Below are positions 1 to 27,863 of a DNA stretch of 64,000 bases, one piece after another (the first letter of the stretch is position 1; every line of letters starts with the position of its first letter). The stretch lies in assembly GCF_005863245.1 (NCBI RefSeq), contig NZ_VBUT01000013.1:62001-126000 (forward strand). The letters are read 5' to 3'. The position numbers and the translations under genes are program-made. Under the pieces are notes generated by a model, which was not told the DNA's origin, ran no database searches, and saw nothing but the letters and a program-made list of their open reading frames with translations. Source of the stretch: Nocardia cyriacigeorgica (GTDB taxonomy: Bacteria; Actinomycetota; Actinomycetes; Mycobacteriales; Mycobacteriaceae).

Positions 1-387
1 GGCGACGCCGATCGCGTCCGCGCCGGGCAGGCAGCCGATGAGGAAGGTGGCCAGGCCCATGCCGAGCAGGCAGGTCACCACGGCGGGTTTGCGCCCGTAC
101 TTGTCGCCGAAGTGCCCGGCGAGCACGCCGCCGAGCGGCCGGGCCACGAAGCCCGCCCAGAACGTGCTGAACGAGAGCAGGGTGCCCATCAGCGCGGAAC
201 TGTCCGGGAAGAACACGGCCGGAAAGACCAGCGCGGCCGCGGTTCCGTAGAGGAAGAAGTCGTACCACTCGATCGAGCTGCCGATGAGTCCGGCGGCGAG
301 GAGTTTGCGGTGGGCGCGCCGGCGGTGCGCCTCGTCGGGGGCCGCCTCGGCGGCCGGGCCTGCTGGTTCCACGGGGGGTGCGGTCAT
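1..387 (-). CDS. MFS transporter, metabolite:H+ symporter type (partial, C-terminal part outside window)
   Basis: Only the first 129 residues are inside the window; the gene runs off its left edge. After a charged cytoplasmic N-terminus, residues 36-47 (GSSIEWYDFFLYG region) match the first helix of the metabolite:H+ symporter subgroup (ShiA/ProP/KgtP-like), and GHFGDKYGRKP at 91-101 is the MFS loop 2-3 signature. It should be an inner-membrane proton symporter for a small organic acid; the substrate cannot be told. It is divergent from the acyl-CoA ligase at 701, with a candidate operator between them, which suggests uptake of a compound that the ligase or the operon at 2931-10721 then degrades (inference). 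The ATG at 385-387 is the only start that leaves the full first helix. Confidence 0.85.
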   Translation of the reverse strand, partial: MTAPPVEPAGPAAEAAPDEAHRRRAHRKLLAAGLIGSSIEWYDFFLYGTAAALVFPAVFFPDSSALMGTLLSFSTFWAGFVARPLGGVLAGHFGDKYGRKPAVVTCLLGMGLATFLIGCLPGADAIGVA

Positions 388-700
388 GCGTGTGCTCCTC
401 GGGCGGATCGCCCGGTCATCGACCTGACGGAAGTAGAAGTTGACACCAAGTTCAAATTGGTGGCACCAGTGTGGGGTAGGCCGGAAGTAATGTCAATCAC
501 ACTTCGCCAGGGAAATGAATCTCGCGCTTCCCCGCCACCGAGTGCGCCCTCGCCGCAGTTTCCGACATTCATCCAGTTCAGGGGCCATTTACCAGCACCC
601 ACGACCGCCGGAAGGAATCGATTCTCGCCAATCGCATAAACATGACGTCAGTTTCAGCTACGCTCGGCTCTCGCTCACTGTTGCCGTCGAAGGACCATCC
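388..700. other. Divergent promoter region, MFS transporter / acyl-CoA ligase
   Basis: This 313-bp gap has no convincing gene. It holds the operator-like sequence at 436-461 near the transporter start, the perfect 8-bp palindrome TGACGTCA at 643-650, and an AAGGA ribosome binding site at 689-693 ahead of the ligase ATG. No clear -35/-10 pair could be fixed. Confidence 0.5.
436..461 (-). promoter_or_regulatory. Candidate TetR operator shared with 10815-10841
   Basis: Read on the minus strand, the core (456 down to 436) is TTTGAACTTGGTGTCAACTT followed by C. It matches 18 of 21 bases with the plus-strand sequence at 10821-10841. Inside it is an imperfect inverted repeat TTGA-N8-TCAA, and CACCAA/TTGGTG arms (444-449, 457-462) overlap it. 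It sits 50-75 bp upstream of the transporter start. Binding by one of the nearby TetR proteins is inferred. Confidence 0.5.
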
Positions 701-2185
701 ATGGCCAACGTCTTCGATCCTGTTCGCACCCACGCCGAGACCGCGCCCGACAGTGTCGCGCTGCGCGGCGAGCGCGGCGAATGGACCTATCGCCAGCTGC
801 ACCGGCTCGCCTCGCGGTATGCCGGAGCACTCGTCGCCGCCGGCCTGCACCCCGGCGACCGGGTCCTGCTGGCCGCGCCCTCGGTGCCCGAATTCGTGGT
901 GGCCTACATGGGAATTCAGGCCGCCGGCTGCGTGACCGTACCGGTGAACACCATGTCGACGCGCGCCGAGGTCGAATACTTCCTCACCGACGCCGACTGC
1001 GCGCTCGCCATCGCCTGGCACGAACTCGGGCCCGCCGTCGCCGACGCCGCACAGCTCACAGGCACTCCGTTCTGGTCGCTCACCGCCGGTGCACAGGCCG
1101 CCGCCGAACCGGTGGCCTGCCTGGACCGCGACCGCACCGACACCGCGGCCATCCTCTACACCTCGGGCACCACCGGCCGCCCCAAGGGCGCTCAGCTGAC
1201 GGTCGGCAACCTGCTCGCCGGCGGCGAGATCGGCGCGGCGAGCAGCCGTGGCACCGCCACCGACCGCACCGGCACCGGGCTGCCACTGTTCCATGTCTTC
1301 GGCCAGGCCGCGGTCATGATGTCGTGTTTCACCAGCGGCGGATCACTGTCGCTACTGGCCCGATTCGATCCGGTCGCCATGCTCGAGCTGCTGCGCCGCG
1401 ACCGGCTGACCATCATGGCCGGGGTGCCGACCATGTGGAATGCCATGCTGCGGGCCGCCGATGCCGCCGACCCGGCCGATTTCGAGCAGCTGCGGGTAGC
1501 CATCTCGGGCGGGGCGTCGCTGCCCGGTGAGATCGCGCGCGAGTTCCAGAAGACGTTCGGATGCACCATCCTCGAGGGCTACGGGCTGACCGAGACCACG
1601 GCGTTCGGCACCTTCAACGATCTCGATCGCGGCGCCAAGATCGGCTACACCGGACGCGCGGTCGCCCGCACGCAGGTCGAAGTCCGCGACCATGATGCGA
1701 CGCCGTGCCCGCCGGGGCAGGTCGGCGAGGTGTTCGTGCGCGGCGAGACGGTGATGAAGGGCTACTGGCGCAGGCCGGAGGCCACCGCCGATGTCCTGTC
1801 CGACGACGGCTGGTTCCGCACCGGCGACCTGGGCGAATTCGACGCCGACGGCGATCTGCGCATCGTCGACCGGGTCAAGGACCTGATCATCCGCGGCGGC
1901 TACAACGTCTATCCAGGTGAGGTCGAGGAGGTGCTCTACGAGCACCCCGACATCATCGAGGCCGCGGTGGTCGGCGTACCGGACGACCATTACGGCGAGG
2001 AGGTCGCGGCGGTCATCGTCACCGCGCCGGACTCGGCCCTCGACGCCGAGACCGTGTCGCAGTGGAGCCGAGAAAGGCTGTCGGCCTACAAGATTCCGCG
2101 CATCATCCGATTCACCGATGCCCTGCCCAAGGGCGCGACCGGCAAGATCCTCAAACGCGCCATCGACCGCGAATCGCTGCGGTAG
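701..2185 (+). CDS. Acyl-CoA ligase, FadD type (AMP-forming)
   Basis: A 494-residue ANL-superfamily enzyme that should activate a carboxylic acid to its CoA thioester through an acyl-adenylate. Visible core motifs are YTSGTTGRPKG (153-163, phosphate loop), GYGLTETT (293-300), TGDLG (374-378) and PKGATGKILKR near the end with the catalytic lysine at about 482. Length is normal for medium or long-chain ligases. An upstream in-frame ATG exists at 515, but the start at 701 has an AAGGA site 7 bases away and gives the usual N-terminus. It is divergent from the transporter and convergent with the TetR gene at 2199. The position suggests it supplies the CoA substrate of the operon at 2931-10721. Acyl specificity is unknown. 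Confidence 0.88.
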   Translation: MANVFDPVRTHAETAPDSVALRGERGEWTYRQLHRLASRYAGALVAAGLHPGDRVLLAAPSVPEFVVAYMGIQAAGCVTVPVNTMSTRAEVEYFLTDADCALAIAWHELGPAVADAAQLTGTPFWSLTAGAQAAAEPVACLDRDRTDTAAILYTSGTTGRPKGAQLTVGNLLAGGEIGAASSRGTATDRTGTGLPLFHVFGQAAVMMSCFTSGGSLSLLARFDPVAMLELLRRDRLTIMAGVPTMWNAMLRAADAADPADFEQLRVAISGGASLPGEIAREFQKTFGCTILEGYGLTETTAFGTFNDLDRGAKIGYTGRAVARTQVEVRDHDATPCPPGQVGEVFVRGETVMKGYWRRPEATADVLSDDGWFRTGDLGEFDADGDLRIVDRVKDLIIRGGYNVYPGEVEEVLYEHPDIIEAAVVGVPDDHYGEEVAAVIVTAPDSALDAETVSQWSRERLSAYKIPRIIRFTDALPKGATGKILKRAIDRESLR

Positions 2186-2198
2186 CGGTCGCTGCGGC

Positions 2199-2849
2199 TC
2201 AGACCGGCGGCGCGCCGTGGACCACCCCGATCCCGCGCACCCACAGCGTCGACAGGGTGTCCGCGGCCGCGTCGGCGTCGATATCGGCGCCGGCTTTGGC
2301 CTGCTGGACGCAGAATTCGCGCACCATTCCGCACAGGGCCGTCGCGGCGACGCGGGCGTCGATATCGCGGGCGGCGAGGCGATCGACTTGCAGCCGGACG
2401 ATCATGGATTCCGCGCGATCGATGAACAGCTCGATCTCGGCCTGCGCGAGCTCGCCGATATCGGGGTTCACCCCGGCGACCTCACCCCACATCAGCATCA
2501 GGCGCTGGTGCTCCCGGAAGGCCAGAACGTAGGCGCGCACGGCCGATTCGATGGCTTCGACGGCGGTCTCGGGCTGGGTGCCCATGCGTGCGCGGACCTT
2601 GTCACGCATATCGGTGATCAAATTCAGCACGACGGCGTGGAAGATCGCTTCTTTGGAGTCGAAGTACACATAGAACGTGCCGTGCGCGACTCCCGCTTCG
2701 GCGACGATGTCGGCCACCCTGGTCTCGACGAATCCGAGGCGCGCGAAAACGAGCTCGGCGGCATCGATCAGTTTCGTGCGCGTCCGCTCCCCTCGCGGGG
2801 TCAACGCCGGTGTTTGCCTACCGGCTCGCGTATTCACAGAGTGCGACAC
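2199..2849 (-). CDS. TetR family transcriptional regulator
   Basis: About 216 residues. The N-terminal helix-turn-helix is clear (LIDAAELVFARLGFVETRV, then GVAHGTFYVYFDSKEAIF) and the C-terminal half is the ligand-binding helical domain, closest in style to TetR proteins of fatty-acid and steroid genes. The start is uncertain: the frame is open up to a TTG at 2912, and GTG codons at 2849 and 2837 both fit; none has a strong ribosome binding site. It lies 81 bp downstream of the HAD gene on the same strand, so it may be the last gene of that long operon, and is convergent with the acyl-CoA ligase. A role in controlling the flanking lipid genes is inferred. Confidence 0.85.
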   Translation of the reverse strand: MSHSVNTRAGRQTPALTPRGERTRTKLIDAAELVFARLGFVETRVADIVAEAGVAHGTFYVYFDSKEAIFHAVVLNLITDMRDKVRARMGTQPETAVEAIESAVRAYVLAFREHQRLMLMWGEVAGVNPDIGELAQAEIELFIDRAESMIVRLQVDRLAARDIDARVAATALCGMVREFCVQQAKAGADIDADAAADTLSTLWVRGIGVVHGAPPV

Positions 2850-2930: not shown

Positions 2931-3566
2931 TCAGCCGCCGATGCCGTGCCGCTCGGCCAGCCGGCGGCGGGTATCGGCGGCGGCGGTATGCAGCACTCCC
3001 GCGATGCCGAGCCGGGCCGCACCGTCGAGATTCTGCTGGAGATCGTCGATCATCACCGCCTGCTCCGGCCGCACACCCAGCCGGTCACAGGCGATCCGAT
3101 AGATCTGCCGAGACGGTTTCCGGATGCCGACCTCCGAGGAGATGACCACGACGTCGGCGAGCTCGGTCAGATCGAAGCCCGCATAGCAGTCCCGGCCGAA
3201 CGCATTCGACACCAGCGCCACGGGAGTACCCGCATCGCGGAGCTCGCGGATCAGCTCGATGCTGTCCTCATCGCGGCGCAGCCCGACCTGCATCCGAGCA
3301 CTCAGCCCGTCCGGATCGACCGCGGCGCCGTGGGCGCGCAGCCTTTCGGCGAAGCCGGCGTCGAAGGCGTCGGCGTCGATACGGCCGGATTCGTGATCGG
3401 CCAGCAGCCTTCGCGAGATCTCATCCGTGCTCAGCAGGGTGATCGGCAGGTCCGGATACCCGATCGAGGCGCCGAATTCGCGGAACCCTTCGAGGACGCT
3501 GGTGGTCATGACGCCGCCGAAATCGACCAGGACGGCCTCGCGGGGATCGAGCATGGCCCCGGTCAT
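2931..3566 (-). CDS. HAD superfamily hydrolase (ACAD10-type phosphatase domain)
   Basis: A 211-residue HAD phosphatase. Motif I is VDFGGVMT with nucleophile Asp15; the usual Asp at +2 is Gly, as in the HAD domains of the epoxide-hydrolase/ACAD10 branch. Motif II is in ALVSNAFG and the acidic motif is in MIDDLQQN. The ATG at 3564-3566 overlaps the TGA of the quinone oxidoreductase by 4 bases (ATGA), so the two are translationally coupled, and an upstream extension of the frame is just a shadow of that gene. As last enzyme gene of the eight-gene operon that also encodes an APH-type kinase and an ACAD11-like dehydrogenase, it may remove a phosphate added by the kinase, or act as housekeeping. 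Activity is not certain given the missing second Asp. Confidence 0.82.
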   Translation of the reverse strand: MTGAMLDPREAVLVDFGGVMTTSVLEGFREFGASIGYPDLPITLLSTDEISRRLLADHESGRIDADAFDAGFAERLRAHGAAVDPDGLSARMQVGLRRDEDSIELIRELRDAGTPVALVSNAFGRDCYAGFDLTELADVVVISSEVGIRKPSRQIYRIACDRLGVRPEQAVMIDDLQQNLDGAARLGIAGVLHTAAADTRRRLAERHGIGG

Positions 3567-4546
3567 GGCTGGAACACGATTCGCCCGGTGGTGCTGCCGT
3601 CCCCGAGGCGGCCGAGCCCGTCGGCGACGTCGGTGAGTGCGAGCCTTTCGCTGACCAGCGGCTTGATCGCGCCGGTTGCGGCGAGCCGGGTGAGCTCGTC
3701 GTGGCAGTCCTGGATGGCTTGGAGGTTGTACTGCTTGTACAGGCCCCAGTGCAGCCCGATGATCGAATAGTTCTTGATCAGCGCATGATTGAGCGCGGGC
3801 TGCGGGATGGTGCCGCCGGCGAACCCGATCACCAGGATGCGGCCTTCGAAGGCAATGCATTTCGTGGATTTCGCGTAGGCATCACCACCGACCGGGTCGT
3901 ACACGACGTCGACGCCGCGTCCGCCGGTGAACTCCTTGACGACCGGCAAGAAATCCTCGCTGTGCCGGTCGATCACCAGATCCGCACCCAGCGCCCGGCA
4001 GTACTCGGCCTTGTCGGCACCGCCGACGACGCCGATGACGGTGGCGCCCGCGGCCTTACCGAGTTGCACCGCCGCACTGCCGACACCGCCCGCGGCGGCG
4101 TGCACCAGCAACGTCTCCCCCGGTTGCAGGGTGGTGCGCCGGTGCAGAGCGAACCAGCTGGTCTGGTAGCCGATGCTCAGTGCCGAGGCCTCGGCGTCAT
4201 CGAGTGCGGCCGGCGCGGGGAAGGCATTGGCCTCGTCGACGACGGTCAATTCGGCGAACGCGCCGCCGGGCAGGTTCGGATTGCCGATCACGCGATCGCC
4301 GACCGCGAACCGGGTGGCGCCGGCCCCGACCGCCACGACCTCACCGCACAGCTCGACCCCCGGGGTGAACGGCAGCGGCGGCGTGATCTGGTATTTGCCG
4401 CGGCACAGCAGCACATCCGGGAAGTTCGCCGGTGCGGCCAGCACCCCCACCAGCAGCTGTCCCTGGCCGGGAGCCGGATCGTCGACCTCTTCGAGGCGCA
4501 GCACCTCGCGCGGTTCGCCGAGTTCGTTGACTCGCCATGCTTTCAC
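3563..4546 (-). CDS. NADPH:quinone oxidoreductase family protein (zinc-free MDR)
   Basis: A 327-residue medium-chain dehydrogenase/reductase without the zinc-binding cysteines, of the quinone oxidoreductase/enoyl reductase type. It has the GroES-like N-domain and the Rossmann motif HAAAGGVGSAA near residues 149-159. It should reduce an enone, enoyl-CoA or quinone with NADPH. The GTG start at 4546 is chosen because GAGGAG precedes it at good spacing and the protein then begins at the usual point; no ATG fits. It lies 2 bases after the stop of the upstream acyl-CoA dehydrogenase and overlaps the HAD gene, so it belongs to the same operon. Substrate unknown; an enoyl-CoA intermediate is the natural guess. 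Confidence 0.87.
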   Translation of the reverse strand: MKAWRVNELGEPREVLRLEEVDDPAPGQGQLLVGVLAAPANFPDVLLCRGKYQITPPLPFTPGVELCGEVVAVGAGATRFAVGDRVIGNPNLPGGAFAELTVVDEANAFPAPAALDDAEASALSIGYQTSWFALHRRTTLQPGETLLVHAAAGGVGSAAVQLGKAAGATVIGVVGGADKAEYCRALGADLVIDRHSEDFLPVVKEFTGGRGVDVVYDPVGGDAYAKSTKCIAFEGRILVIGFAGGTIPQPALNHALIKNYSIIGLHWGLYKQYNLQAIQDCHDELTRLAATGAIKPLVSERLALTDVADGLGRLGDGSTTGRIVFQP

Positions 4547-4548
4547 CG

Positions 4549-5676
4549 TCAGCTCCTCGTGGTCGTGGCCGGATCCGCCGTCACCGGCAGATCGATGAGT
4601 TCGGCGAGCCGGGCCCGATGCCGGTAGCCGGTGCCGAACGCCAATTGCGAACTCTTGGCGCGCTTGAGATACAAGTGCGCCGGATACTCCCAGGTCATGC
4701 CGATGCCGCCGTGCAGTTGCACGCATTCCTCCGCGGCGTGCACGGCCGCGTCACCGCAGTAGGACTGGGCGAGCGCGGCGGCGATCTCGGCGTCGTCGTC
4801 ACCGCGGGCATAGGTGTCGGCGGCATAGCGGGCGGCCGAGGCCGCCGAACCCAGTTCCAGCCACAGTTCGGCGAGCCGATGCTTGATCGCCTGATATGAG
4901 CCGATGGCACGGCCGAACTGCTTGCGGTCCTTGACATAGGCGAGCGTGGTGTCGAAGCACCAGCGCGCCACCCCGTACTGTTCGGACGCCAGCAGGGCCG
5001 CACCGCAGCGCAGGGCCTCGGCAACAGCGCCTGCGGCGTCGCTGCTCACCCGCGTCGACGGTGTGGCGCCGAACGACACATCGGCCAGCGGCCTGGTCAT
5101 ATCCAGTGCCAGTACCGGTGTCACCGTCACGCCGCGGGCGGCCCGATCGACGACATGCAGCTCCAGTCCCCGCGGCCCCGCGGCCGGAACGACCAGCAGA
5201 TCGGCGTCGAGCGCACCTGCGACGCTGGTGACCGTGCCGGTCAACCCGCCACCGGTGGCCAGCACCCCGGTGCTGGGCGCACCCGGCGGGATCGACAACG
5301 GCACCACCAGCGTCGCGGTGCGATTGCCCTCGGCGAGCTCGCGCACCACCTCGGTGTCACCGGCCCGCAGCAACGCCACTGTCGCCAGCACCGCACTGGT
5401 CAGAAACGGCACCGGAGCAACAGCGCGCCCGATCTCTTCGCACACCACTGCGGCCTCGCGGGCCGACGCGCCCGCACCGCCGAGCTCCTCGGGTACCAGC
5501 AGCCCGGCGACCCCGAGATCGGCCGCGAGCGCTTTCCACACCTGCGTGAAATCCTTCGGCGCGCTGTCATAGACGCTCAGCACGGCCTCGGGCGGGCACC
5601 GATCGGTGAGCAGCCGCCGCACGCTGTCGCGCAGCGCTTCCTCGGTGTCGGAGTACAGCAGGTCCGCAGTGCTCAT
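4549..5676 (-). CDS. Acyl-CoA dehydrogenase (second subunit of an overlapping pair)
   Basis: A 375-residue acyl-CoA dehydrogenase with N-terminal helical, middle beta and C-terminal helical domains. The C-terminal stretch DRKQFGRAIGSYQAIKHRLA is the classic FAD-contact region of the family, whereas the middle domain is divergent and lacks the usual SEPxAGSD substrate-binding loop. It overlaps the preceding dehydrogenase by ATGA (5673-5676). In mycobacteria such adjacent divergent pairs form alpha2-beta2 heterotetramers with split FAD and catalytic sites, known for cholesterol side-chain enzymes. A similar arrangement here is inferred, not shown. Predicted role: alpha,beta-dehydrogenation of an acyl-CoA, probably bulky or branched. 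Confidence 0.88.
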   Translation of the reverse strand: MSTADLLYSDTEEALRDSVRRLLTDRCPPEAVLSVYDSAPKDFTQVWKALAADLGVAGLLVPEELGGAGASAREAAVVCEEIGRAVAPVPFLTSAVLATVALLRAGDTEVVRELAEGNRTATLVVPLSIPPGAPSTGVLATGGGLTGTVTSVAGALDADLLVVPAAGPRGLELHVVDRAARGVTVTPVLALDMTRPLADVSFGATPSTRVSSDAAGAVAEALRCGAALLASEQYGVARWCFDTTLAYVKDRKQFGRAIGSYQAIKHRLAELWLELGSAASAARYAADTYARGDDDAEIAAALAQSYCGDAAVHAAEECVQLHGGIGMTWEYPAHLYLKRAKSSQLAFGTGYRHRARLAELIDLPVTADPATTTRS

Positions 5677-6863
5677 CGGGCCAGGTCCTTCCAGGCGGCG
5701 GTCTTGTCGACGCGATGTTCCGGTGGCAGGCCGAGCACCCGCTCGGCGATGACATTGCGCAGGATCTCCGAGGTGCCGCCCTCGATCGAATTGCCCTTGG
5801 CGCGCAGATAGCGGTAACCCGGTCCGCGGCCGGTGAATTCGACGCGCTCGGGCCGCCGCAGCGTCCAATCGTCGTAGCGCAGACCGGCTTCGCCGTGCAG
5901 CTCGATACCGAATCCGGAGATGCGCTGGGCGAGCCTGGCGAAGGCCAGCTTCATCGCCGAACCCTCCGGCCCCGGCTGCCCGGCGGCCAGCTGCTGACGC
6001 AACCGTTCCCCGGTCAGGCGGGTCACCTCGGCCTCGACCCACAATCGCAGCAGCTCATCGTGCATGGCCGGATCCCGCAGCTGCGGCTGTTCACGCCAGG
6101 CCTGGGCGACCTTGCCGATCTGGCCGCCTTCGCGCGGCGCACCCGACCCGATGGCGACCCGCTCATTGTTCAGCGTGGTGGTGGCGACCCGCCAGCCCTG
6201 CCCTTCCCCGCCGAGACGGTTCTCGTCCGGGATGCGCACGCCGGACAGGAAGACCTCGTTGAATTCGGCTTCGCCGGTGATCTGGCGCAACGGCCGGATG
6301 TCGATGCCCGGATCGCTCATATCGCACAGGAAGTAAGTCAGCCCGGCATGTTTGGGCACCGACGGATCCGTGCGCGCGACCAGGATCGCCATCTGGGCGT
6401 TCTGCGCGCCGGAGGTCCACACCTTCTGCCCGTCCACCACCCAGTCCGCGCCGTCGCGGACCGCGCGGGTGGCCACCGCGGCCAGATCCGAGCCCGCGCC
6501 GGGTTCACTGAACAGCTGGCAGTAGATGTGTTCGCCGGTGAACAACGGCCGCAAGAACTTTCGCCGCTGCTCGGGTGTGCCGAAGGCGGCGATCGTCGGG
6601 GCGGCCATGCCGAGGCCGATGCCGTTGCGTTCCACCGCCGGGCCGGGCGCGCCGGCGGCGGCGAGGGCGGCATCGACGTGGGCCTGATAGATCTGCGGCA
6701 ATCCGAGACCGCCGTTGCCGACCGGGAAATGCACCCAGGCCAGGCCGTCATCGAAACGGGCGCCGAGGAATTCGCGTGCGTCGGTGGTCGCCGGATCGTT
6801 GGCCGCGAGCAGTTCGGCGATGCGCGCGTCGAGATCGGCGGCGATCGCGGTGTCGATCGTCAT
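5673..6863 (-). CDS. Acyl-CoA dehydrogenase (first subunit of an overlapping pair)
   Basis: A 396-residue acyl-CoA dehydrogenase. The substrate/FAD loop QLFSEPGAGSDLA is intact, followed by WVVDGQKVWTSGAQ, and the C-terminus carries the GGTSEILRN FAD-binding motif. It starts with ATG at 6863 and its stop overlaps the start of the second dehydrogenase. It carries the typical middle and C-terminal motifs that its partner lacks, which supports a heteromeric enzyme. It lies 26 bp downstream of the FabG-like SDR. The FadE26/FadE28-like architecture suggests a branched or ring-bearing acyl-CoA substrate; this is inference. Confidence 0.9.
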   Translation of the reverse strand: MTIDTAIAADLDARIAELLAANDPATTDAREFLGARFDDGLAWVHFPVGNGGLGLPQIYQAHVDAALAAAGAPGPAVERNGIGLGMAAPTIAAFGTPEQRRKFLRPLFTGEHIYCQLFSEPGAGSDLAAVATRAVRDGADWVVDGQKVWTSGAQNAQMAILVARTDPSVPKHAGLTYFLCDMSDPGIDIRPLRQITGEAEFNEVFLSGVRIPDENRLGGEGQGWRVATTTLNNERVAIGSGAPREGGQIGKVAQAWREQPQLRDPAMHDELLRLWVEAEVTRLTGERLRQQLAAGQPGPEGSAMKLAFARLAQRISGFGIELHGEAGLRYDDWTLRRPERVEFTGRGPGYRYLRAKGNSIEGGTSEILRNVIAERVLGLPPEHRVDKTAAWKDLAR

Positions 6864-6889
6864 ATCGTCGTCCTGGTTCTGGCGGCGGA

Positions 6890-7648
6890 TCAGTCCGTCG
6901 GCCCGCCGGCGACGTAGATGACCTGCCCGGAAACGAAACCCGCTCCCTCACTGACCAGGAACGACGCGGTGTGCGCGATATCGTCGGGCTTGCCGGTGCG
7001 CTGCACCGGGATCTGCTTGGCCATGGCCTTGGTGAACTCGTCGAACGGCACGCCGACACGTTCGGCGGTCGCGGCGGTCATCTCGGTTTCGATGAAACCG
7101 GGCGCGATGGCGTTCGCGGTGACGCCGAACTTGCCGAGCTCGATGGCGAGCGTCTTGGTCAGGCCCTGCATGCCCGCCTTGGCGGCCGAATAGTTGGCCT
7201 GGCCGCGGTTGCCGAGCGCGGAGGTGCTCGACAGGTTGACGATGCGGCCGAACCCGGCCTCGACCATGTGCTGCTGCACCGCGCGCGTCATCAGGAACGC
7301 ACCGCGCAGGTGCACGTTCATGACCGCGTCCCAATCGTCGACGGTCATCTTGAACAGCAGGTTGTCGCGGATGATGCCGGCATTGTTGACCAGCACGGTC
7401 GGCGCGCCGAGCGTGTCGGTGATCTGCTCGACGGCCGCGGCGACCGCCGATTCGTCGGCGACATCGGCGCCGACCGCGAGCGCGCGCCCACCGGCCGCGG
7501 TGATCGCGTCGACGGTGCCCGCGCAGGCGGCGGCATCGAGATCGAGGACCGCCACGGCCATTCCGTCGGCGGCGAGGCGCTTCGCTACGGCCGCGCCGAT
7601 GCCACGCGCGGCGCCGGTGACGATCGCGGTCCTGGTTTCCTGAGTCAT
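6890..7648 (-). CDS. SDR family oxidoreductase, 3-oxoacyl reductase (FabG-like)
   Basis: A 252-residue classical short-chain dehydrogenase: TGAARGIG at 11-18 binds the cofactor, NNAG is at 88-91, and the catalytic set is Ser140, Tyr153 and Lys157. The sequence is close to FabG and to beta-oxidation 3-hydroxyacyl-CoA dehydrogenases. Start ATG at 7648 follows AGGAGAATGAC. It sits 22 bp after the APH-type kinase gene and 26 bp before the acyl-CoA dehydrogenase pair, so it likely oxidises or reduces the 3-hydroxy/3-keto acyl-CoA step of the operon's pathway. Direction and substrate cannot be read from sequence. Confidence 0.88.
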   Translation of the reverse strand: MTQETRTAIVTGAARGIGAAVAKRLAADGMAVAVLDLDAAACAGTVDAITAAGGRALAVGADVADESAVAAAVEQITDTLGAPTVLVNNAGIIRDNLLFKMTVDDWDAVMNVHLRGAFLMTRAVQQHMVEAGFGRIVNLSSTSALGNRGQANYSAAKAGMQGLTKTLAIELGKFGVTANAIAPGFIETEMTAATAERVGVPFDEFTKAMAKQIPVQRTGKPDDIAHTASFLVSEGAGFVSGQVIYVAGGPTD

Positions 7649-7670
7649 GTCATTCTCCTGAAAGATGTGG

Positions 7671-8702
7671 TCAGAGGCCGGCGGCGTCGGCGACTTCGGT
7701 GGCCTTGCGCACCACCGCGTCGATCCGCTCGACGGTCGGGGTGCCCGCCGCGGCCCGGTTCTGTGGTTCGTCCATGGCCCGGCGCATCACGCCCTCGGCG
7801 ATCACCGCCAGCTTCCACAGACCGAGCACATGCCAGTACTGCAGAGCGGCCGGATCGCGTCCGGTTTCGGTGAGGTACACCTGGGCCAGTTCCGCGCGGG
7901 TCGGGAAACCCGGCAGGGTCGAGGCCGGGAAATCGCCGCCGAGCTCCTCCTCACCGGGTTCGGGCCAGTAGGCCAGCAGACTGCCCATATCCGCGAGCGG
8001 TTCACCGAGGGTGGACAATTCCCAGTCCAGCGCCGCCTTCAGCTCGCCGGATTCGGGATCGGCGATGACGTTGCGCAGATGGAAATCACCGTGCACCAGG
8101 GTGATTTCGCGCTGTTCCGGGACGGCGGCGACGAGCCTGCGGGTGAGGTCGTCGAGTTCGGGCAGCTCACGGGTCTTCGACTGTTCCCACTGCCCCGCCC
8201 AGCGCTTGAGCTGACGCTGCGCGTACGGCTTGTGCGAGGCCAGATCGGCGAGCCCGACCGCCTCGATATCGACGGCATGGATCTTCGCCAGCGTGCGCGG
8301 CAGCGCCATGGCGATCTCGCCGCGCCGCTGCGGTGTGAGCGAGCGCGCGATGTCCATGGTGTCGATCACCAGGCCGTCGACGAACTCCATCAGCACCAGC
8401 GGCACGTCGCAGACCGCGGGGTCGGTGCTGACCCCGAGGATGCGCGGCGCGGGCACCGCGGTGTCTTCCAGGGCCGCGATGATGCGTGCCTCGCGGACCA
8501 CGTCGTGCGCCGAGGCCAGCAGCTGACCGAGCGGCGGACGCCGCAGCACCCAGCGGCGCTCGGCGGCATCGGTGAGCAGATAGGTCAGATTGGACTGACC
8601 GAGGCCGATCCTGGTGAAGCGCAGCGGGGCATCGAAGTCGATGCCGAGCGAACCGAGCCAGCCCGCGATCGCATCCGGCTCCACCGCGAGGCTGTCACCC
8701 AT
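7671..8702 (-). CDS. APH family phosphotransferase (ACAD10/ACAD11-type kinase)
   Basis: A 343-residue aminoglycoside-phosphotransferase-fold kinase. The catalytic loop LVHGDFHLRN (about 202-211) and the metal-binding DWE at 226-228 are intact. This subgroup is the stand-alone form of the N-terminal kinase domain of ACAD11, which phosphorylates the 4-hydroxyl of 4-hydroxyacyl-CoA, and resembles LvaA of Pseudomonas levulinate catabolism. It is very unlikely to be an antibiotic resistance gene, since it lies between SDR and acyl-CoA dehydrogenase genes. ATG at 8702 overlaps the end of the upstream SDR by 8 bases; a longer in-frame start at 8738 is less likely. Confidence 0.87.
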   Translation of the reverse strand: MGDSLAVEPDAIAGWLGSLGIDFDAPLRFTRIGLGQSNLTYLLTDAAERRWVLRRPPLGQLLASAHDVVREARIIAALEDTAVPAPRILGVSTDPAVCDVPLVLMEFVDGLVIDTMDIARSLTPQRRGEIAMALPRTLAKIHAVDIEAVGLADLASHKPYAQRQLKRWAGQWEQSKTRELPELDDLTRRLVAAVPEQREITLVHGDFHLRNVIADPESGELKAALDWELSTLGEPLADMGSLLAYWPEPGEEELGGDFPASTLPGFPTRAELAQVYLTETGRDPAALQYWHVLGLWKLAVIAEGVMRRAMDEPQNRAAAGTPTVERIDAVVRKATEVADAAGL

Positions 8703-9477
8703 CGGCGACCGGGCCCTTCCGGAACTGGGCGGCGTCACCGAGCCGTTGTCCGCCGTCGATCACCATGGTTTCGCCGGTCACCCAGCTCGCGGCGTCGGAG
8801 GCCAGGAAGGCGATGGCCGCGCCGATGTCGGCGGGTTCGCCGATCCGGTTCAGCGCCGTCGCCTCGTTGAGCAGCTGCTCGTGTTCCTGCCACAGCGCGG
8901 CGGCCAGCTTGGTACGCACCACACCCGGCGCGACCGCGTTGACCCGGATCCGCGGCGACAGTTCCAGCGCCATCTGTTTGGTGAGATGGATCAGCGCGGC
9001 CTTGCTCGCGTTGTACAAGCCGAGGTTGGCCTCGAAACCCATGCCGCCGATGGACGCGGTATTGATGACCGCGCCGCCGTGCTCGCCCATCCAGGCGCGG
9101 GTGGCCAGCGACGTCCACAGGATCGGTGCCCACAGGTTCACGTCGAAGGTCTTCTGGAACCGGCCGTGGTCTTGGTCGATCACCGGGCCGTAGGCGGGGT
9201 TGGTGCCCGCGTTGTTGACGAGAATGTCGACGCTGCCGAACTTTTCCAGCGTCAGGTCGATACAACGGCGCGCGGCGTCCTCGTCCACGGCGTGCGCGGC
9301 CACACCGACGGCATTGCCGCCGACCTCGGCCGCCGCCGCGTCAGCGGAGTCCTGCGAGCGCGAGGTGAGCACGACATTGCCGCCCGCGGCCGCGATGGCC
9401 TGCGCCGCGGCGAGCCCGATGCCACGCGAGGCGCCGGTGATGACGGCGGTGCGCCCGCTCAGATCGATGCCCTTCAT
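8695..9477 (-). CDS. SDR family oxidoreductase
   Basis: A 260-residue classical SDR with TGASRGIG at 14-21, NNAG at 88-91 and catalytic Ser142, Tyr155 and Lys159. The C-terminus ends in a glucose/alcohol-dehydrogenase-like MVIDGGQ motif. It overlaps the acyl-CoA dehydrogenase upstream by ATGA (9474-9477) and the kinase downstream by 8 bases, so all three should be made together in fixed ratio. Probably a 3-hydroxyacyl-CoA or hydroxy-acid dehydrogenase of the same pathway; substrate unknown. Confidence 0.87.
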
Positions 9478-10721
9478 GCCTTCACCTGCTGTCCGTTGTT
9501 CGCGGCGGCCTCGGCGGTGCGGTACTTGCCGAGCTCCTGGCGGGCGATCGCACGCTTGTGCACCTCATCCGGACCGTCGGCCAGCCGCAGCGTGCGCAGA
9601 TGCGCCCACGCCATGGCGAGCGGGAAGTCATCGGTGACGCCGCCGCCGCCGTGCACCTGAATCGCGCGGTCCACCACCTTCAGCGCGATATTGGGTGCGG
9701 CGACCTTGATCGCCGCGATCTCGGTGCGGGCTTCCTTGTTGCCCACGGTGTCCATCAGGTAGGCGGCCTTGAGGGTGAGCAGCCGGATCATCTCGATATC
9801 GATGCGCGATTCGGCGATCCAGTCCTGGATATTGGCGTTGTCGCTGATCGGCTTGCCGAACGTGCTGCGCGAACGCGCCCGCGTGCACATCAATTCCAGT
9901 GCGCGTTCGGCCATGCCGATCGAGCGCATGCAGTGGTGGATGCGACCGGGGCCGAGCCGGGCCTGGCTGATCGCGAAGCCCTCACCCTCCCCCTTCAGCA
10001 CGTCCTTGGCCGGCACCCGGACATTGTCGAAATCGATTTCGGCGTGCCCCTCGCGGTCCTGATACCCGAAGACCGGCAGGTTGCGCATCACGGTGATGCC
10101 CGGTGCGTCGATGGGCACCACCATCATCGACTGCTGGCGGTGCGGGGCGGCGTTCGGATCGGTCTTGCCCATCACGATCAGCACCTTGCAGTTCTTGTGC
10201 ATCGCGTTGGAGGCGAACCACTTCCGCCCGTTGAGCAGGTAATCGTCGCCGTCACGGACCATCGACAGTTCGACATTGGTCGCGTCCGAGCTGGCCACCC
10301 GCGGCTCGGTCATCGCGAACGCCGACCTGATGGTGCCCTCCAGCAGCGGCTTCAGGTACTTCTCCTTGTGCTCATCGGTACCGAAGAGCGTGAGGACCTC
10401 CATGTTTCCGGTGTCGGGAGCATTGCAGTTGCAGGCTTCCGGTGCGATGAAACTGCGGCCCATGATCTCGGCCAGCGGCGCGTACTCCAGGTTGGTCAGC
10501 CCCGGCCCCCACTCCGGATGCGGATGGAAGAGGTTCCACAGCCCGCGCCGCCGGGCCTCGGCCTTGAGCTCCTCCATGATCGGCGGATGGAAGTGCGGAT
10601 CACCGGACTCACGCATCTGCTGGTCGTACACGGCCTCGGCCGGGTAGACGTGCGTATCCATGAAGTCGAGCAGTTCCGCCCGGTACTTCTCGGCACGTTC
10701 GGAGGTGTCGAACAAGGACAT
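9474..10721 (-). CDS. Acyl-CoA dehydrogenase, ACAD11-like
   Basis: A 415-residue acyl-CoA dehydrogenase and first gene of the eight-gene operon. The middle domain carries [16 protein letters not shown] (134-149) and [10 protein letters not shown], features of the branch that contains the dehydrogenase domain of ACAD10 and ACAD11, and the C-terminal FAD motif is [18 protein letters not shown] at 10721 is preceded by AGGAGCCAGG. Adjacent genes encode the APH kinase and HAD phosphatase that are fused to this dehydrogenase in vertebrates. ACAD11-type enzymes act on 4-phosphoacyl-CoA, eliminating phosphate; that role here is inferred from family and neighbourhood. Confidence 0.88.
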
Positions 10722-10921
10722 CCTGGCTCCTGACGGGTAAGACGGCGTTATCGGCGATCAACGGGTGCGGTCGCGCCGACTGCGGGGTCACGACCTGTGA
10801 ACCACATCGCAACCACCGTATTTGAACTCGGCGTCAATTTCAAGAGTTGCGTCGAGAAATGGCCTTCACCAGCGTTTATTCAGGAATTATCCGTGAAGAT
10901 CGCTGCGGATCCGGCCCGGCT
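10722..10921. other. Promoter region of the ACAD-kinase-HAD operon
   Basis: A 200-bp gap upstream of the operon start and downstream of a co-directional TetR gene. It holds the operator-like sequence at 10815-10841 and the ribosome binding site next to 10721. No protein-coding signal was seen. Confidence 0.5.
10815..10841 (+). promoter_or_regulatory. Candidate TetR operator shared with 436-461
   Basis: The core at 10821-10841 fits the consensus TTGAACTyGGyGTCAAyTTC plus a leading T, with 18 of 21 bases identical to the site at 436-456 read on the opposite strand. It contains an imperfect TTGA-N8-TCAA inverted repeat and lies about 95-120 bp upstream of the acyl-CoA dehydrogenase start. Either TetR protein of this region could bind it; the one encoded at 10922-11602 is adjacent. 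Confidence 0.5.
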
Positions 10922-11602
10922 TCAGGATCGGATGCGCAGGGCGTTGACCCACAGCCGGTTCGCGGTGTCGATCACGTCCTCGAGCGCGGGACTGTCCGCG
11001 CCGCCGTAGCCGGCCACGAAATGATTGAACGCGAGCCTGCTGACCATCCCCGACAGCGCCCGCGACGCCAGCATCGGATCGACCTGCGGGTCGGCCAGCC
11101 CCCGATCCTGCAAATTCTCGATACTGCGCGCATTGCGCACCATGAACGCCTCGGCCCGATTCCGCCGCAGCACCGCGAACTCCTGATCGATCCCGGCGAC
11201 CTGCTCCAGCAACCCCATCAACTTGGCATTGCGCTGATAAGCCAGGAAATACGCACGATTGCTCGCCGCGATGATCTGCGCCGGATCCGCGTCATCGTCC
11301 ACCCGGGGCATCCCCGGATGCATCATGTCCTCCTGCGCGAGTTCCAGTACCGCGGCGAAGATCTCCTCTTTGCTCGCGAAGTAGGTGTAGAACGTCCCCG
11401 ACGAACACTTCGCCGCCTTCGTGATGTCCGACAGCCGCGTCTCCAGATACCCCCGCCGCTCGAACACCTTGCGCGCCGCCGCAACCAACGCCCCCCGAGT
11501 CCGCAACCCCCGCGCCGTCGACGGCAACTCCCGCAACAGCGACGACCGAGCCATCGACGGCGCCGCCTCATCCCCCTCGACCCCGATACCCGCAGTATCC
11601 AT
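10922..11602 (-). CDS. TetR family transcriptional regulator
   Basis: About 226 residues. The DNA-binding domain reads VAAARKVFERRGYLETRLSD then KCSSGTFYTYFASKEEIF; the C-terminal helices form the ligand pocket. Start ATG at 11602 is preferred; a GTG at 11626 is also in frame. It is transcribed toward the ACAD-kinase-HAD operon and may be read through into it. It is divergent from tRNA-Pro, which lies 142 bp away. Most TetR proteins repress neighbouring genes and respond to acyl-CoA or xenobiotic ligands; here the likely target is the operator at 10815-10841. Confidence 0.87.
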   Translation of the reverse strand: MDTAGIGVEGDEAAPSMARSSLLRELPSTARGLRTRGALVAAARKVFERRGYLETRLSDITKAAKCSSGTFYTYFASKEEIFAAVLELAQEDMMHPGMPRVDDDADPAQIIAASNRAYFLAYQRNAKLMGLLEQVAGIDQEFAVLRRNRAEAFMVRNARSIENLQDRGLADPQVDPMLASRALSGMVSRLAFNHFVAGYGGADSPALEDVIDTANRLWVNALRIRS

Positions 11603-14018: not shown

Positions 14019-14735
14019 ATGAACCTCATGAAGTCTCGCCTGTTCGCGATGATCGCCACGATCATCGCGGCGGTGGCGCTCATGGCAGCCGGAGCAGGTA
14101 GCGCGGCCGCGGCACCGCAGACCGGTGAAATGTTCCTCACCTTTGTTCGTCACGGAGAATCGGCCGGCAATAGTTCCGGTCTGATCGACACTTCTGTCCC
14201 CGGACCCGAGCTGACCGAGCAGGGGCGGGCCCAAGCCGTGGCGGTCTCCCAGCTGCTGGCCGATTGCAAGTTCGACGGCGTCTACGCGTCGACGATGGTG
14301 CGGACCCAGCAGACGGCGGAGCCGACCTCGCAGCTGTGTGGTCATCCGACCGTCGTCGAAGACGGACTGCACGAGATCGAGGCAGGCATCTACGAGGGCA
14401 CGCCCGAAAAGGATGCGCGCGAGGGTTATTTGGCCGCGCCGATCCAGTGGTTGCAGGGCAACCTTGATGCCAGGATCCCGGGCTCGATCAACGGCCACGA
14501 GTTCAAGAAGCGCATGGACGACTCCCTTCAGGACATCCAGGACCGTGGCAGCAAGCGCGCGGTGGTCTTCTCCCACGGCGGCGCCATCATGTTCTGGGCA
14601 CTCATGTCCGTCTCGAACCCCGACATGAGCAAGCTGCAGACCGATCCGTTGCACAACACCGGCCGGGTGGTCGTGAAGGGCACCCCGGCGAAGGGCTGGA
14701 AGCTCGTGTCGTGGGATGGCCATCCCGCCGCCTGA
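14019..14735 (+). CDS. Secreted histidine phosphatase family protein
   Basis: A 238-residue exported protein. Residues 1-32 form a Sec signal peptide (basic start, helix MIATIIAAVALMAAGAG, AAA cleavage site). The phosphatase fold follows with RHGE at 44-47 (catalytic His45) and the second histidine in VVFSHGGA (His186). Two cysteines, 83 and 107, could form a disulfide outside the cell. It belongs to the branch of exported phosphoglycerate-mutase-like phosphatases common in Nocardia and mycobacteria; the natural phosphate ester is unknown. It stands alone, with a promoter-like region downstream for the next unit. Confidence 0.88.
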   Translation: MNLMKSRLFAMIATIIAAVALMAAGAGSAAAAPQTGEMFLTFVRHGESAGNSSGLIDTSVPGPELTEQGRAQAVAVSQLLADCKFDGVYASTMVRTQQTAEPTSQLCGHPTVVEDGLHEIEAGIYEGTPEKDAREGYLAAPIQWLQGNLDARIPGSINGHEFKKRMDDSLQDIQDRGSKRAVVFSHGGAIMFWALMSVSNPDMSKLQTDPLHNTGRVVVKGTPAKGWKLVSWDGHPAA

Positions 14736-21986: not shown

Positions 21987-22564
21987 GCGATCTCCTTCGA
22001 CCGAGTGGGCAGGACAGCGGTGGTGAGTTCGGGCGGAGTGTGTGTGCGGCCCGGGCCGGCGACCCTGCGCACGATATGCCCGGCGTCCTCGGCGTAGACG
22101 ATGATGTCGACCCGGTGTTCGATCCCGTCGACGGTGCGCACACCCAGCGGGACCAGCCGCGCGATCGGCCAGGTCACCAGGGTGCAATGCGGTTGTCTCA
22201 GGGTCCGGTAGTAGCTGTTGTGCACCGCGACGCCCGCGGCCTCATCGGGCGTGAGCCGGTGCCGCAGCCACGAATCACGCACCTGAAGGCGCAGGTTGAC
22301 GCGCGCGATCAGCCGCACGAACCGGTCGGGAGCCCGCCGCAGCACCGCAGCGGGCAGCGGCGCCCGCGGCAGCACCCACACCGCATCGGTCTGGAACACC
22401 GTCACCCGCTGCGCCTCCGCGGCGATTCCCGGCAGCAGCCGCGCCGCCGCCGCACCGGTACCGATGATCGCGACCCGCCGGCCGGTGAATTCGTGGCGCG
22501 GAACGAACGCCTTGCGGTGCAGCTGCGGACCAGTGAACGTCTCCGCGAACCGCGGGGTGGTCAT
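21983..22564 (-). CDS. Half-size Baeyer-Villiger-like protein (NADPH domain only)
   Basis: A 193-residue protein that aligns only with the middle of a Baeyer-Villiger monooxygenase. It starts at a degenerate fingerprint (F10, G12, H16 kept; Trp replaced by Phe20) and continues with VAIIGTGAAAARLLPGI (NADPH site, about 31-47) and VTVFQTDAVWVLPRA. The FAD-binding N-terminus and the C-terminal part are absent. Yet it has its own start, keeps the reading frame and overlaps both neighbours by ATGA, so it appears maintained rather than decaying. It may be a partner of the full-length enzyme, or an early-stage remnant. Confidence 0.75.
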   Translation of the reverse strand: MTTPRFAETFTGPQLHRKAFVPRHEFTGRRVAIIGTGAAAARLLPGIAAEAQRVTVFQTDAVWVLPRAPLPAAVLRRAPDRFVRLIARVNLRLQVRDSWLRHRLTPDEAAGVAVHNSYYRTLRQPHCTLVTWPIARLVPLGVRTVDGIEHRVDIIVYAEDAGHIVRRVAGPGRTHTPPELTTAVLPTRSKEIA

Positions 22565-27801: not shown

Positions 27802-27863
27802 GGACTGATCCTACGGCATGAGTTGAATCTGAGGCCAGGTTCAATAACGGATATGGCCGCCGG

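Follow-up and report, generated by a model that had tools for sequence, protein, structure and literature searches.

A Nocardia cyriacigeorgica operon encodes separate HAD, kinase and ACAD11-type dehydrogenase proteins and probably serves 4-hydroxy acid catabolism

Organization of the operon

The window analyzed is a 64,000-nucleotide stretch of Nocardia cyriacigeorgica DNA (contig NZ_VBUT01000013.1, here C13, positions 62,001 to 126,000). Eight genes with intact open reading frames lie on its minus strand, read from 10721 to 2931, with gaps of at most 26 bases (Table 1). Spacings were taken from the gene coordinates, and protein families were assigned with Pfam and NCBIfam. The ACAD11-like and SDR1 genes overlap by 4 bases, the SDR1 and kinase genes by 8, ACADa and ACADb by 4, and the MDR and HAD genes by 4, while the SDR2 gene is bordered by gaps of 22 and 26 bases and 2 bases separate ACADb from the MDR gene. 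The start of the HAD gene, which overlaps the MDR gene, was called at 3566, with no clear ribosome site. The intact frames and profile matches bear out the sequence-only reading that one minus-strand operon encodes a HAD protein, an APH-type kinase and an ACAD11-like dehydrogenase separately, and both positions and profiles agree with its two SDRs, overlapping acyl-CoA dehydrogenase pair and MDR reductase, giving three acyl-CoA dehydrogenases in all.

The MDR protein scores 240 bits to a PIG3-like model, under that model's cut-off, and ACADb scores 195.9 bits (cut-off 450) to the profile of IpdE2, a steroid-pathway enzyme. Among the relatives' loci ACADa/b is optional, and SDR1 adjoins the kinase and ACAD11-like genes in many of those mapped. 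In Rhodococcus opacus strains such as DSM 44186 the operon has the composition SDR-ECH-ACAD11-SDR-kinase. The MFS gene is truncated by the window edge and extends beyond it on the minus strand of C13, and the ligase start at 701 comes from gene calling.

Table 1. Genes and candidate operator sites at the locus (positions in the window)
Feature	Position	Strand	Basis and proposed role
ACAD11/LvaC-type acyl-CoA dehydrogenase, 415 aa	9474..10721	-	Profile, alignment, tree; candidate 4-phosphoacyl-CoA phosphate-eliminating enzyme
SDR1, short-chain dehydrogenase	8695..9477	-	Profile; possible 4-hydroxy/4-oxo interconversion
APH-family kinase, 343 aa from ATG 8702	7671..8702	-	Profile, alignment, model; putative 4-hydroxyacyl-CoA kinase
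SDR2, FabG-like	6890..7648	-	Profile; putative 3-hydroxyacyl-CoA dehydrogenase
ACADa, acyl-CoA dehydrogenase with N, middle and C domains	5673..6863	-	Profile; without ACAD11 signature
ACADb, partner subunit, middle domain not detected	4549..5676	-	IpdE2-like profile below cut-off; without ACAD11 signature
MDR reductase, PIG3/quinone-reductase-like	3563..4546	-	Profile
HAD-IA protein, D-x-G motif I, motifs II to IV intact	2931..3566	-	Proposed stand-alone counterpart of the ACAD10 HAD domain
TetR1 regulator	2199..2804	-	Profile, gene call
TetR2 regulator	10922..11554	-	Profile; adjoins the ACAD11-like operon in many mapped relatives
Acyl-CoA ligase (AMP-binding)	701..2185	+	Gene call; putative 4-hydroxy acid activation
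MFS transporter, 5' part	1..387	-	Whole gene G000:C13:60999-62387 (L011 16999-18387)
Candidate operator TTGAAATTGACGCCGAGTTCAA, 22 bases	10822..10843	-	Upstream of the ACAD11-like operon
Same candidate operator, 1 mismatch	434..455	+	Intergenic region of the divergent MFS/ligase pair

A candidate operator shared with the transporter and ligase genes

The 22-base operator was found by comparing upstream regions, among which that of locus L089 held no common stretch. With up to 3 mismatches allowed, the pattern occurs at 4 places in the whole genome (6.5 Mb), all on C13: before the ACAD11 operon, at the transporter/ligase genes and, weakly, before two other genes. At the same tolerance the reversed control pattern had no match genome-wide, and contig C11, which carries the lactonase gene described below, had no operator. 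An inverted-repeat search upstream of the ACAD11-like gene found none at the settings used. The common operator favors the earlier view that the ligase and MFS protein (1 to 2185) provide entry steps, although their genes are divergent neighbors and not members of the operon.

The ACAD11-type dehydrogenase

The dehydrogenase scores 452.8 bits to the ACAD11 chain 8v3u and 458.1 to 4hr3; the best conventional acyl-CoA dehydrogenase reaches 153.1. In the alignment, P94, R255, R260, H263, R266 and D382 fit the ACAD11 signature. Equivalents of R626, R631, H634, R637 and D753, as defined in PMC12440821, are all present: the catalytic Asp (ACAD11 D753) is found as D382 in place of Glu, the phosphate-binding R626, H634 and R637 of the HCMR region correspond to R255, H263 and R266, and P94 is the group-specific Pro. 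The tree places the protein in one group with mouse ACAD11 comprising 9 of the 18 rows, with moderate support (88/98), and 86% of 200 bootstrap trees contain a branch that sets this group apart. Bit scores, diagnostic residues and tree thus uphold its assignment as ACAD11-like.

Two paralogues of the same genome (41% and 37% identical) share the R/H/R/D signature, which is therefore wider than ACAD10/11/LvaC, not exclusive to them. Four kinase places were found in this genome, and neither paralogue lies beside any of them. In the close relative L058, a Ser occupies the position of the group-specific Pro.

The APH-family kinase

The kinase matches the APH family (PF01636, 1.9e-48), with E values of 7.5e-41 to the ACAD11 chain 8v3v and 1.4e-58 to 9o56, an entry linked to LvaA by annotation name only. 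Alignment shows the catalytic loop HGDFHLRN with conserved catalytic D and N, and R163 at the position of the CoA-contact R176 of ACAD11. In the kinase tree mouse ACAD11 groups with 3dxp, L140 and L149 (96/96) and the window kinase lies in a different branch, which lends no support to close orthology with ACAD11. The proposed ACAD10/11-like nature of the kinase thus holds for the family, the catalytic D/N and the R176 equivalent but not for the branch; grouping with an unrelated family, which would speak against it, is seen in this weak form only, the family being the same.

The predicted structure (pLDDT 92) has 3dxp as its best structural match (Z 31.0) and the 25-hydroxysteroid kinase 9ft5 as second best (Z 27.9), and neither 8v3v nor 9o56 is among the 50 matches listed. 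Aminoglycoside resistance was rejected as a function, given 38.4 bits against a cut-off of 205 for the APH(3') model and the catabolic context. Among kinase loci at 36 to 50% identity, many of them on short contigs, only 5 of 60 have an ACAD11-like gene (at least 50% identity). Of the 64 kinase places where identity reaches 50% or more, 27 lack an ACAD11-like gene within 5 kb, as do 23 of the 31 with lower identity.

The HAD protein

The HAD protein matches PF00702 (4.4e-15), and its best NCBIfam model, TIGR02247 (epoxide-hydrolase N-domain-like), gives 84.7 bits, below the cut-off of 125.4. All 18 HADs inspected carry Asp-x-Gly in motif I and have motifs II to IV intact. The best solved match, the putative phosphatase 2b0c, has D-x-G at the same place, in a stretch identical to that shown for the phosphatase YihX (8pno, 8pne), which supplies the next matches. 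In PMC11342911, the HAD domain of ACAD10 is described as retaining the first Asp of DxD only, as restraining its kinase and as having negligible phosphatase activity on 4-phosphohydroxyhexanoyl-CoA. Compared through this published motif description, the window HAD likewise has the first Asp only. The name "HAD phosphatase" used in the sequence-only reading is thus sound as to family and motifs II to IV, but with Asp-x-Gly in motif I a phosphatase role is only a possibility.

A family draw of 121 genomes gave 14 HAD places besides the window's own, each with an ACAD11-like gene no more than 19.1 kb away; the same distance holds for all 10 non-own places of HADs at least 50% identical. This linkage at high identity, together with the ACAD10-type motif defect, supports the HAD as a counterpart of that of ACAD10. 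Distant HADs (34 to 44% identity) were rejected as a uniform partner, because just 5 of the 35 places drawn across the phylum are linked; in that draw, 8 of the 23 genomes having both HAD and ACAD11-like genes show linkage within 5 kb. Locus L057 has both genes and no nearby kinase of the kind searched for.

Lactonase genes in related loci

Before relatives' loci were counted, tblastn matches covering less than 40% of the query were removed, as were matches below 35% identity in the survey of mapped relatives' clusters. In related genomes, a PTE-family (QsdA-type) lactonase gene lies within 24 kb of an ACAD11-like gene or 26 kb of a kinase gene at 21 of 46 lactonase places (20 of 45 without the query's own, which was chosen for lying in a cluster), and 25 places are unlinked to either. 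Loci L058 and L059 have genes for a QsdR-type TetR, a PTE lactonase and a ligase contiguous with the ACAD11-like and kinase genes; in L062, from a genome of the same genus, the order is QsdR-type/PTE, kinase, ligase, and the trio is contiguous with the kinase. The L058 TetR matches QsdR 4ZA6 at 3.8e-71. L048 and L049 carry a TetR and a PTE gene near operon genes, with a ligase of another type. The names QsdA-type and QsdC are applied to the lactonase and ligase because of family, gene order and the QsdR match.

In N. cyriacigeorgica itself, the QsdR-type TetR, PTE and ligase genes lie together on C11 (lactonase G000:C11:30607-31575, outside the window), unlinked to the operon, and the MFS gene is on C13, so that qsdR/qsdA-qsdC-qsdD is not contiguous in this genome. 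The lactonase genes within orthologous clusters strengthen the earlier suggestion of a lactone as substrate source.

Proposed pathway and alternatives

The reactions and substrates that follow are inferred from the genes present and their order, the active-site residues, the linkage and the shared operator. The operon probably serves the catabolism of 4-hydroxy acids, most likely from gamma-lactones, as a carbon source through phosphorylation followed by elimination; the HAD would be a regulator or repair phosphatase. Degradation of a 4-hydroxy acid or lactone had been suggested before, and the dehydrogenase signature, the linkage and the lactonase genes in orthologous clusters support it. The MFS protein would import the substrate, the QsdA-type lactonase encoded on C11 would open the ring, and the window ligase or the lactonase-adjacent ligase on C11 would attach CoA. 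The kinase would then phosphorylate the 4-hydroxyl of the acyl-CoA, and the ACAD11-type dehydrogenase would eliminate the phosphate in an FAD-dependent, redox-neutral reaction, yielding 2-enoyl-CoA. Hydration by a MaoC hydratase (C13:59193-59666), oxidation by SDR2 and thiolysis by a thiolase (C13:59750-60937) may follow, the first and last being encoded upstream of the window. By way of the 4-oxo form, SDR1 may invert a disfavored 4-hydroxy isomer; the ACAD10 kinase is reported to prefer the R isomer (PMC11342911). ACADa/b and the MDR reductase probably act in later beta-oxidation rounds, and the HAD may restrain the kinase, as reported for ACAD10, or clear phosphorylated dead ends.

That the HAD is an active repair phosphatase, acting on free 4-phospho acids or excess 4-phosphoacyl-CoA, and not a kinase regulator, has nearly an even chance. 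The intact motifs II to IV in all 18 proteins, the D-x-G in 2b0c and YihX, and a histidine-phosphatase gene reported in the Pseudomonas citronellolis lva cluster (PMC6692424) point to it, but the HAD of ACAD10 has the same defect and negligible activity on its phosphoacyl-CoA. It is rather unlikely that the same chemistry serves a 4-oxo acid, levulinate or longer, as the natural substrate, with an LvaD-like SDR1 converting 4-oxoacyl-CoA to 4-hydroxyacyl-CoA before the kinase and dehydrogenase act. The counterparts of LvaE, LvaD, LvaA and LvaC (PMC6692424) would be the ligase, SDR, kinase and ACAD11-type dehydrogenase, and in the window, as in several relatives, the SDR1 gene separates those of the dehydrogenase and kinase; however, gene calling alone finds no small LvaB-type gene within the operon, the regulators are TetR rather than the sigma54 type described for lva (PMC6692424), and the PTE-lactonase gene recurs in clusters. 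Levulinate as the sole substrate was set aside and retained as a rival.

The phosphate put on by the 25-hydroxysteroid kinase serves as a leaving group. This enzyme resembles the window kinase in fold and, by the title of its structure entry, phosphorylates an alcohol, as proposed for the window kinase, but differs in gene neighborhood and has just 17 to 18% identity over the aligned model. Its rank as second-best structural match and the IpdE2 score of ACADb would fit a kinase acting on a different alcohol, such as a tertiary one in the side chain of a steroid or terpenoid, with phosphate eliminated elsewhere than at C4 and the operon degrading that compound; since a common fold says nothing on substrate, and given the ACAD11-type signature and the co-location with gamma-lactone genes, this is improbable. 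Least credible is a conventional acyl-CoA dehydrogenase with incidental kinase and HAD neighbors: the two signature-bearing paralogues have no kinase place beside them and many kinase and HAD relatives are located elsewhere, but the linkage recurs across genera despite altered gene orders, and the operon has overlapping genes and a shared operator. An ordinary beta-oxidation operon was likewise set aside on the signature residues and the recurrent kinase/HAD linkage.

Relation to known systems

The operon has the same three domain families and ACAD signature residues as mammalian ACAD10 (HAD-kinase-ACAD) and ACAD11 (kinase-ACAD), and shares with ACAD10 a HAD without the second Asp of DxD. The gene order in L064 and L152, two relatives, is HAD-kinase-ACAD, the domain order of ACAD10. 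The operon differs in that its proteins are separate, its kinase belongs to another branch than that of ACAD11, and its neighbors include genes for CoA ligation, beta-oxidation and, in relatives, the opening of lactones. As separate, small and clustered proteins, the HAD, kinase and dehydrogenase make the role of the ACAD10 HAD domain directly testable.

The lva operon of Pseudomonas putida (LvaA-E) likewise combines a kinase and LvaC-type dehydrogenase with an SDR, ligase and transporter. The Nocardia operon differs in its HAD, its TetR regulators with a common operator, its two-subunit acyl-CoA dehydrogenase and, in relatives, its lactonase (PTE) linkage; PMC12440821 states that lva contains nothing equivalent to the ACAD10 HAD domain. 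LvaB, a 12-kDa kinase partner, has no called equivalent in the Nocardia operon, and P. citronellolis has none either (PMC6692424).

The qsd operon of Rhodococcus erythropolis (qsdR/qsdA-qsdC-qsdD) resembles the QsdR-type TetR/PTE-lactonase/ligase trio of N. cyriacigeorgica, which differs in lying on another contig than the ACAD11 operon. In the passages and term counts covered, its published description includes no kinase, phosphotransferase or acyl-CoA dehydrogenase. Steps of the gamma-lactone pathway past lactone opening have been ascribed to beta- or omega-oxidation. The qsd-type link supplies candidate enzymes for gamma-lactone catabolism after QsdA and QsdC in a biocontrol organism. Tentatively, a rhodococcal and nocardial gamma-lactone (quorum-quenching) pathway might proceed via 4-phosphoacyl-CoA with the D-x-G HAD as a dedicated trans-acting kinase regulator or repair enzyme, and ACAD10 might in effect be a fused form of a bacterial operon that persists today in the gene order HAD-kinase-dehydrogenase. 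In L049, L055 and like relatives, the MFS orthologues come after the PTE-lactonase and ligase genes, which parallels the place of qsdD after qsdA and qsdC.

Organization of the operon and its setting

The operon coordinates and gene families put forward in the sequence-only reading agree, after small corrections, with the gene calls and domain matches. The source genome measures 6.52 Mb, and the window spans positions 62001 to 126000 of its contig C13. The same contig continues upstream (locus L011) with the part of the MFS gene that the window cuts off and with genes for a thiolase and a MaoC hydratase; 6 to 8 kb off the window edge there is a second SDR-HAD pair, the HAD of which is 50% identical to that of the operon. 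The cluster of Nocardia cyriacigeorgica NBRC 100375 encodes a kinase and an ACAD11-like protein 93% and 98% identical to those of the window, in the order TetR2 (the adjacent regulator), ACAD11-like, SDR1, kinase, MDR, HAD. SDR2, ACADa, and ACADb are absent from this cluster, which indicates that the two-subunit dehydrogenase ACADa/ACADb is optional; the ACAD11-like gene, the kinase, and the HAD are still together in its absence.

The dehydrogenase and the kinase

The ACAD11-like dehydrogenase scores 452.8 bits against the ACAD11 chain 8v3u and 458.1 against 4hr3, with the next solved acyl-CoA dehydrogenase at 153.1. Residues R626, H634, R637, and D753, as well as H597 with a partial effect, are named for the ACAD11 structure (PMC12440821), and a group-specific proline and the same arginine are named for the ACAD10/11 group (PMC11342911). 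The window dehydrogenase presents P94, R255, R260 (general), H263, R266, and D382, and a histidine is aligned opposite H597. In the alignment, the ACAD11 residue set is absent from ACADa, ACADb, one control from the source genome, and four conventional neighbors from relatives. The R/H/R/D signature also occurs in two paralogues of the source genome, 41% and 37% identical, and is thus the mark of a wider group; neither paralogue adjoins any of the four kinase places found in this genome. In the tree, the window dehydrogenase groups with mouse ACAD11 (support 88/98).

The D and N of the HGDFHLRN loop of the kinase and the arginine equivalent to ACAD11 R176 are kept in the 16 usable rows of the kinase alignment. 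An arginine preceding the alpha-C glutamate is conserved among the kinases, and the published R86 is not matchable by number. A structure model built from 26 sequences (pLDDT 92.0) matches best to 3dxp (Z 31.0, rmsd 3.1, 320 aligned), followed by 25-hydroxysteroid kinase and then Rv3168. In the kinase tree, mouse ACAD11 kinase sits with 3dxp and the window kinase lies in a different branch. We favor the reading that the window kinase works like that of ACAD11, from its context and active site, as a likeness of function rather than a claim of orthology. The source genome also has a second ACAD11-like dehydrogenase gene directly before an APH kinase gene on contig C5. This kinase, which groups with PDB 9o56 apart from the window kinase, has a catalytic loop that does not fit the motif searched.

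Linkage of kinase, dehydrogenase, and HAD

Among the best 80 of 587 loci, an ACAD11-like gene lies within 10 kb in 15 of the 20 named loci with a 52 to 93% identical kinase, and one of at least 50% identity is found in 5 of the 60 with 36 to 50% kinases. In the family draw, an ACAD11-like gene lies no more than 5 kb from 37/64 non-own kinase places at kinase identities of at least 50% and from 8/31 below. On a plasmid of Rhodococcus opacus PD630 (L038, 5661-13029), the ACAD11-like and kinase genes adjoin LLM-class monooxygenases and a flavin reductase; another PD630 record names the two "ACAD family members 11 and 10."

The HAD is found at E 1e-30 or better in 15 of 121 family genomes, the source genome included, and an ACAD11-like gene lies within 19.1 kb of all 14 non-own HAD places (within 8 kb of 12). 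In a draw of 396 genomes from the phylum, linkage within 5 kb occurs at 3/3 non-own HAD places with at least 50% identity versus 5/35 at 34 to 44%. When both draws are pooled, linkage holds at 10 of 10 distinct non-own places where the HAD is 50% or more identical; the family draw supplies 8 of these, one of which (G008) turns up again among the phylum genomes. In L064, overlapping genes follow the order HAD, kinase, dehydrogenase, an order also present in L152.

The 18 HADs inspected, which come from loci fetched for this cluster and include near-copies, all have a D-x-G motif I (first aspartate only) and intact motifs II, III, and IV. The HAD of ACAD10 likewise has only the first aspartate, with negligible phosphatase activity, and restrains the kinase (PMC11342911). 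The D-x-G defect is no proof of inactivity, because 2b0c, the solved structure that matches best, carries D-x-G too, in a printed stretch that it has in common with the phosphatase YihX.

Putative lactonase and the qsd genes

The clusters of relatives contain a phosphotriesterase-family (PTE) protein (PF02126) that matches the PTE homology protein 4if2, which we take to be mycobacterial, at 3.6e-130. In L058, the PTE gene stands beside a ligase gene and a divergent TetR gene, the product of which matches 4za6 at 3.8e-71. The names QsdA-type and QsdC-type used here are putative, given by family, gene order, and this match rather than by direct comparison with QsdA or QsdC sequences. The 4ZA6 structure is QsdR, and in Rhodococcus erythropolis the genes qsdC (ligase) and qsdD (MFS) come after qsdA, in that order (PMC4640858); the qsd operon is required for gamma-caprolactone use (PMC6476934).

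L058 and L059 have the order QsdR-type / PTE, ligase, SDR, ACAD11-like, (SDR1), kinase, and L062, from the genus of the window, has QsdR-type / PTE, kinase, ligase. The ligases of these three loci are 66 to 86% identical to that on contig C11 of the source genome, which carries QsdR-type TetR, PTE, and ligase genes. L063, L153, and L155 combine PTE, ligase, kinase, ACAD11-like, HAD, MaoC, SDRs, and more in a different order. In the family draw, an ACAD11-like gene lies within 24 kb of 20 of 46 non-own PTE places (18 within 10 kb). A kinase gene lies within 26 kb of 14/46, a count from a kinase list limited to E 1e-60, so that the 35 to 37% kinases of L063, L153, and L155 are excluded. Either gene is found at 21/46, including the place of the PTE query itself (G026).

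Once opened, the lactone is described as undergoing beta- or omega-oxidation (PMC3689677). The main text of that paper contains neither "phospho" nor "kinase," and "kinase" is absent from the main text of PMC6476934. Among the matches listed in a literature search that covers few subscription papers, none joins qsd genes with this kinase chemistry. ACAD10/11 and LvaA/LvaC chemistry is already known; among the matches listed for ACAD10, bacterial operon, and phosphotransferase, the ACAD10 term occurs only in the two ACAD10 papers themselves.

A candidate operator

Comparison of the sequence upstream of the ACAD11-like gene yielded the candidate operator TTGAARTTGACNCCRNNTTYAA. At a limit of 2 mismatches, the window contains it at its derivation site and, independently, between the MFS and ligase genes (0 occurrences in 100 shuffles). 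With up to 3, the whole genome has four places, all on C13, and the reversed control pattern has none; none falls in six other loci of this genome (L012 to L016 and L069). The second SDR-HAD pair is probably part of a regulon common with the operon, and the alpha/beta-hydrolase is possibly a further member, e.g., an esterase or lactonase. In 12 relatives chosen for cluster-type kinase or ACAD11-like genes, 26 distinct places have up to 2 mismatches; by hand labeling, 21 of them fall inside the cluster, another 2 no more than 7 kb from it, and 3 elsewhere; at this threshold, genomes G026, G021, and G064 have none.

Features of the window and source genome
Feature	Position	Similarity	Context
Operator-like site	10822-10843	0 mismatches	upstream of ACAD11-like operon
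Operator-like site	434-455	1 mismatch	between MFS and ligase
Operator-like site	C13:56099	3 mismatches	before second SDR-HAD pair
Operator-like site	window 27823-27844	3 mismatches, none in the TTGAA/TTCAA arms	just upstream of alpha/beta-hydrolase gene 26962-27801 (-)
Second SDR-HAD pair	G000:C13:54423-55999 (L011 10423-11999)	HAD 50% identical	D-x-G HAD
Acyl-CoA dehydrogenase paralogues with R/H/R/D	G000:C5:163478-164650 (L015 8388-9680); C4:48193-49239 (L016 6067-7239)	41% and 37%	
Second ACAD11-like dehydrogenase and APH kinase	G000:C5:194880-197106 (within L012 8865-11268)	52% and 36%	dehydrogenase directly before kinase
FMO-like flavin monooxygenase	window 20505-21986 (-)		
Neighbors of FMO-like gene	window 21983-22564, 22561-23484		no Pfam match at 1e-5
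Histidine phosphatase	window 14019-14735 (+)		signal-like N terminus (by eye)

The window also encodes an FMO-like flavin monooxygenase, which, if it is a Baeyer-Villiger-type enzyme, could make lactones. The lva cluster of P. citronellolis contains a histidine phosphatase, and the histidine phosphatase of the window looks secreted.
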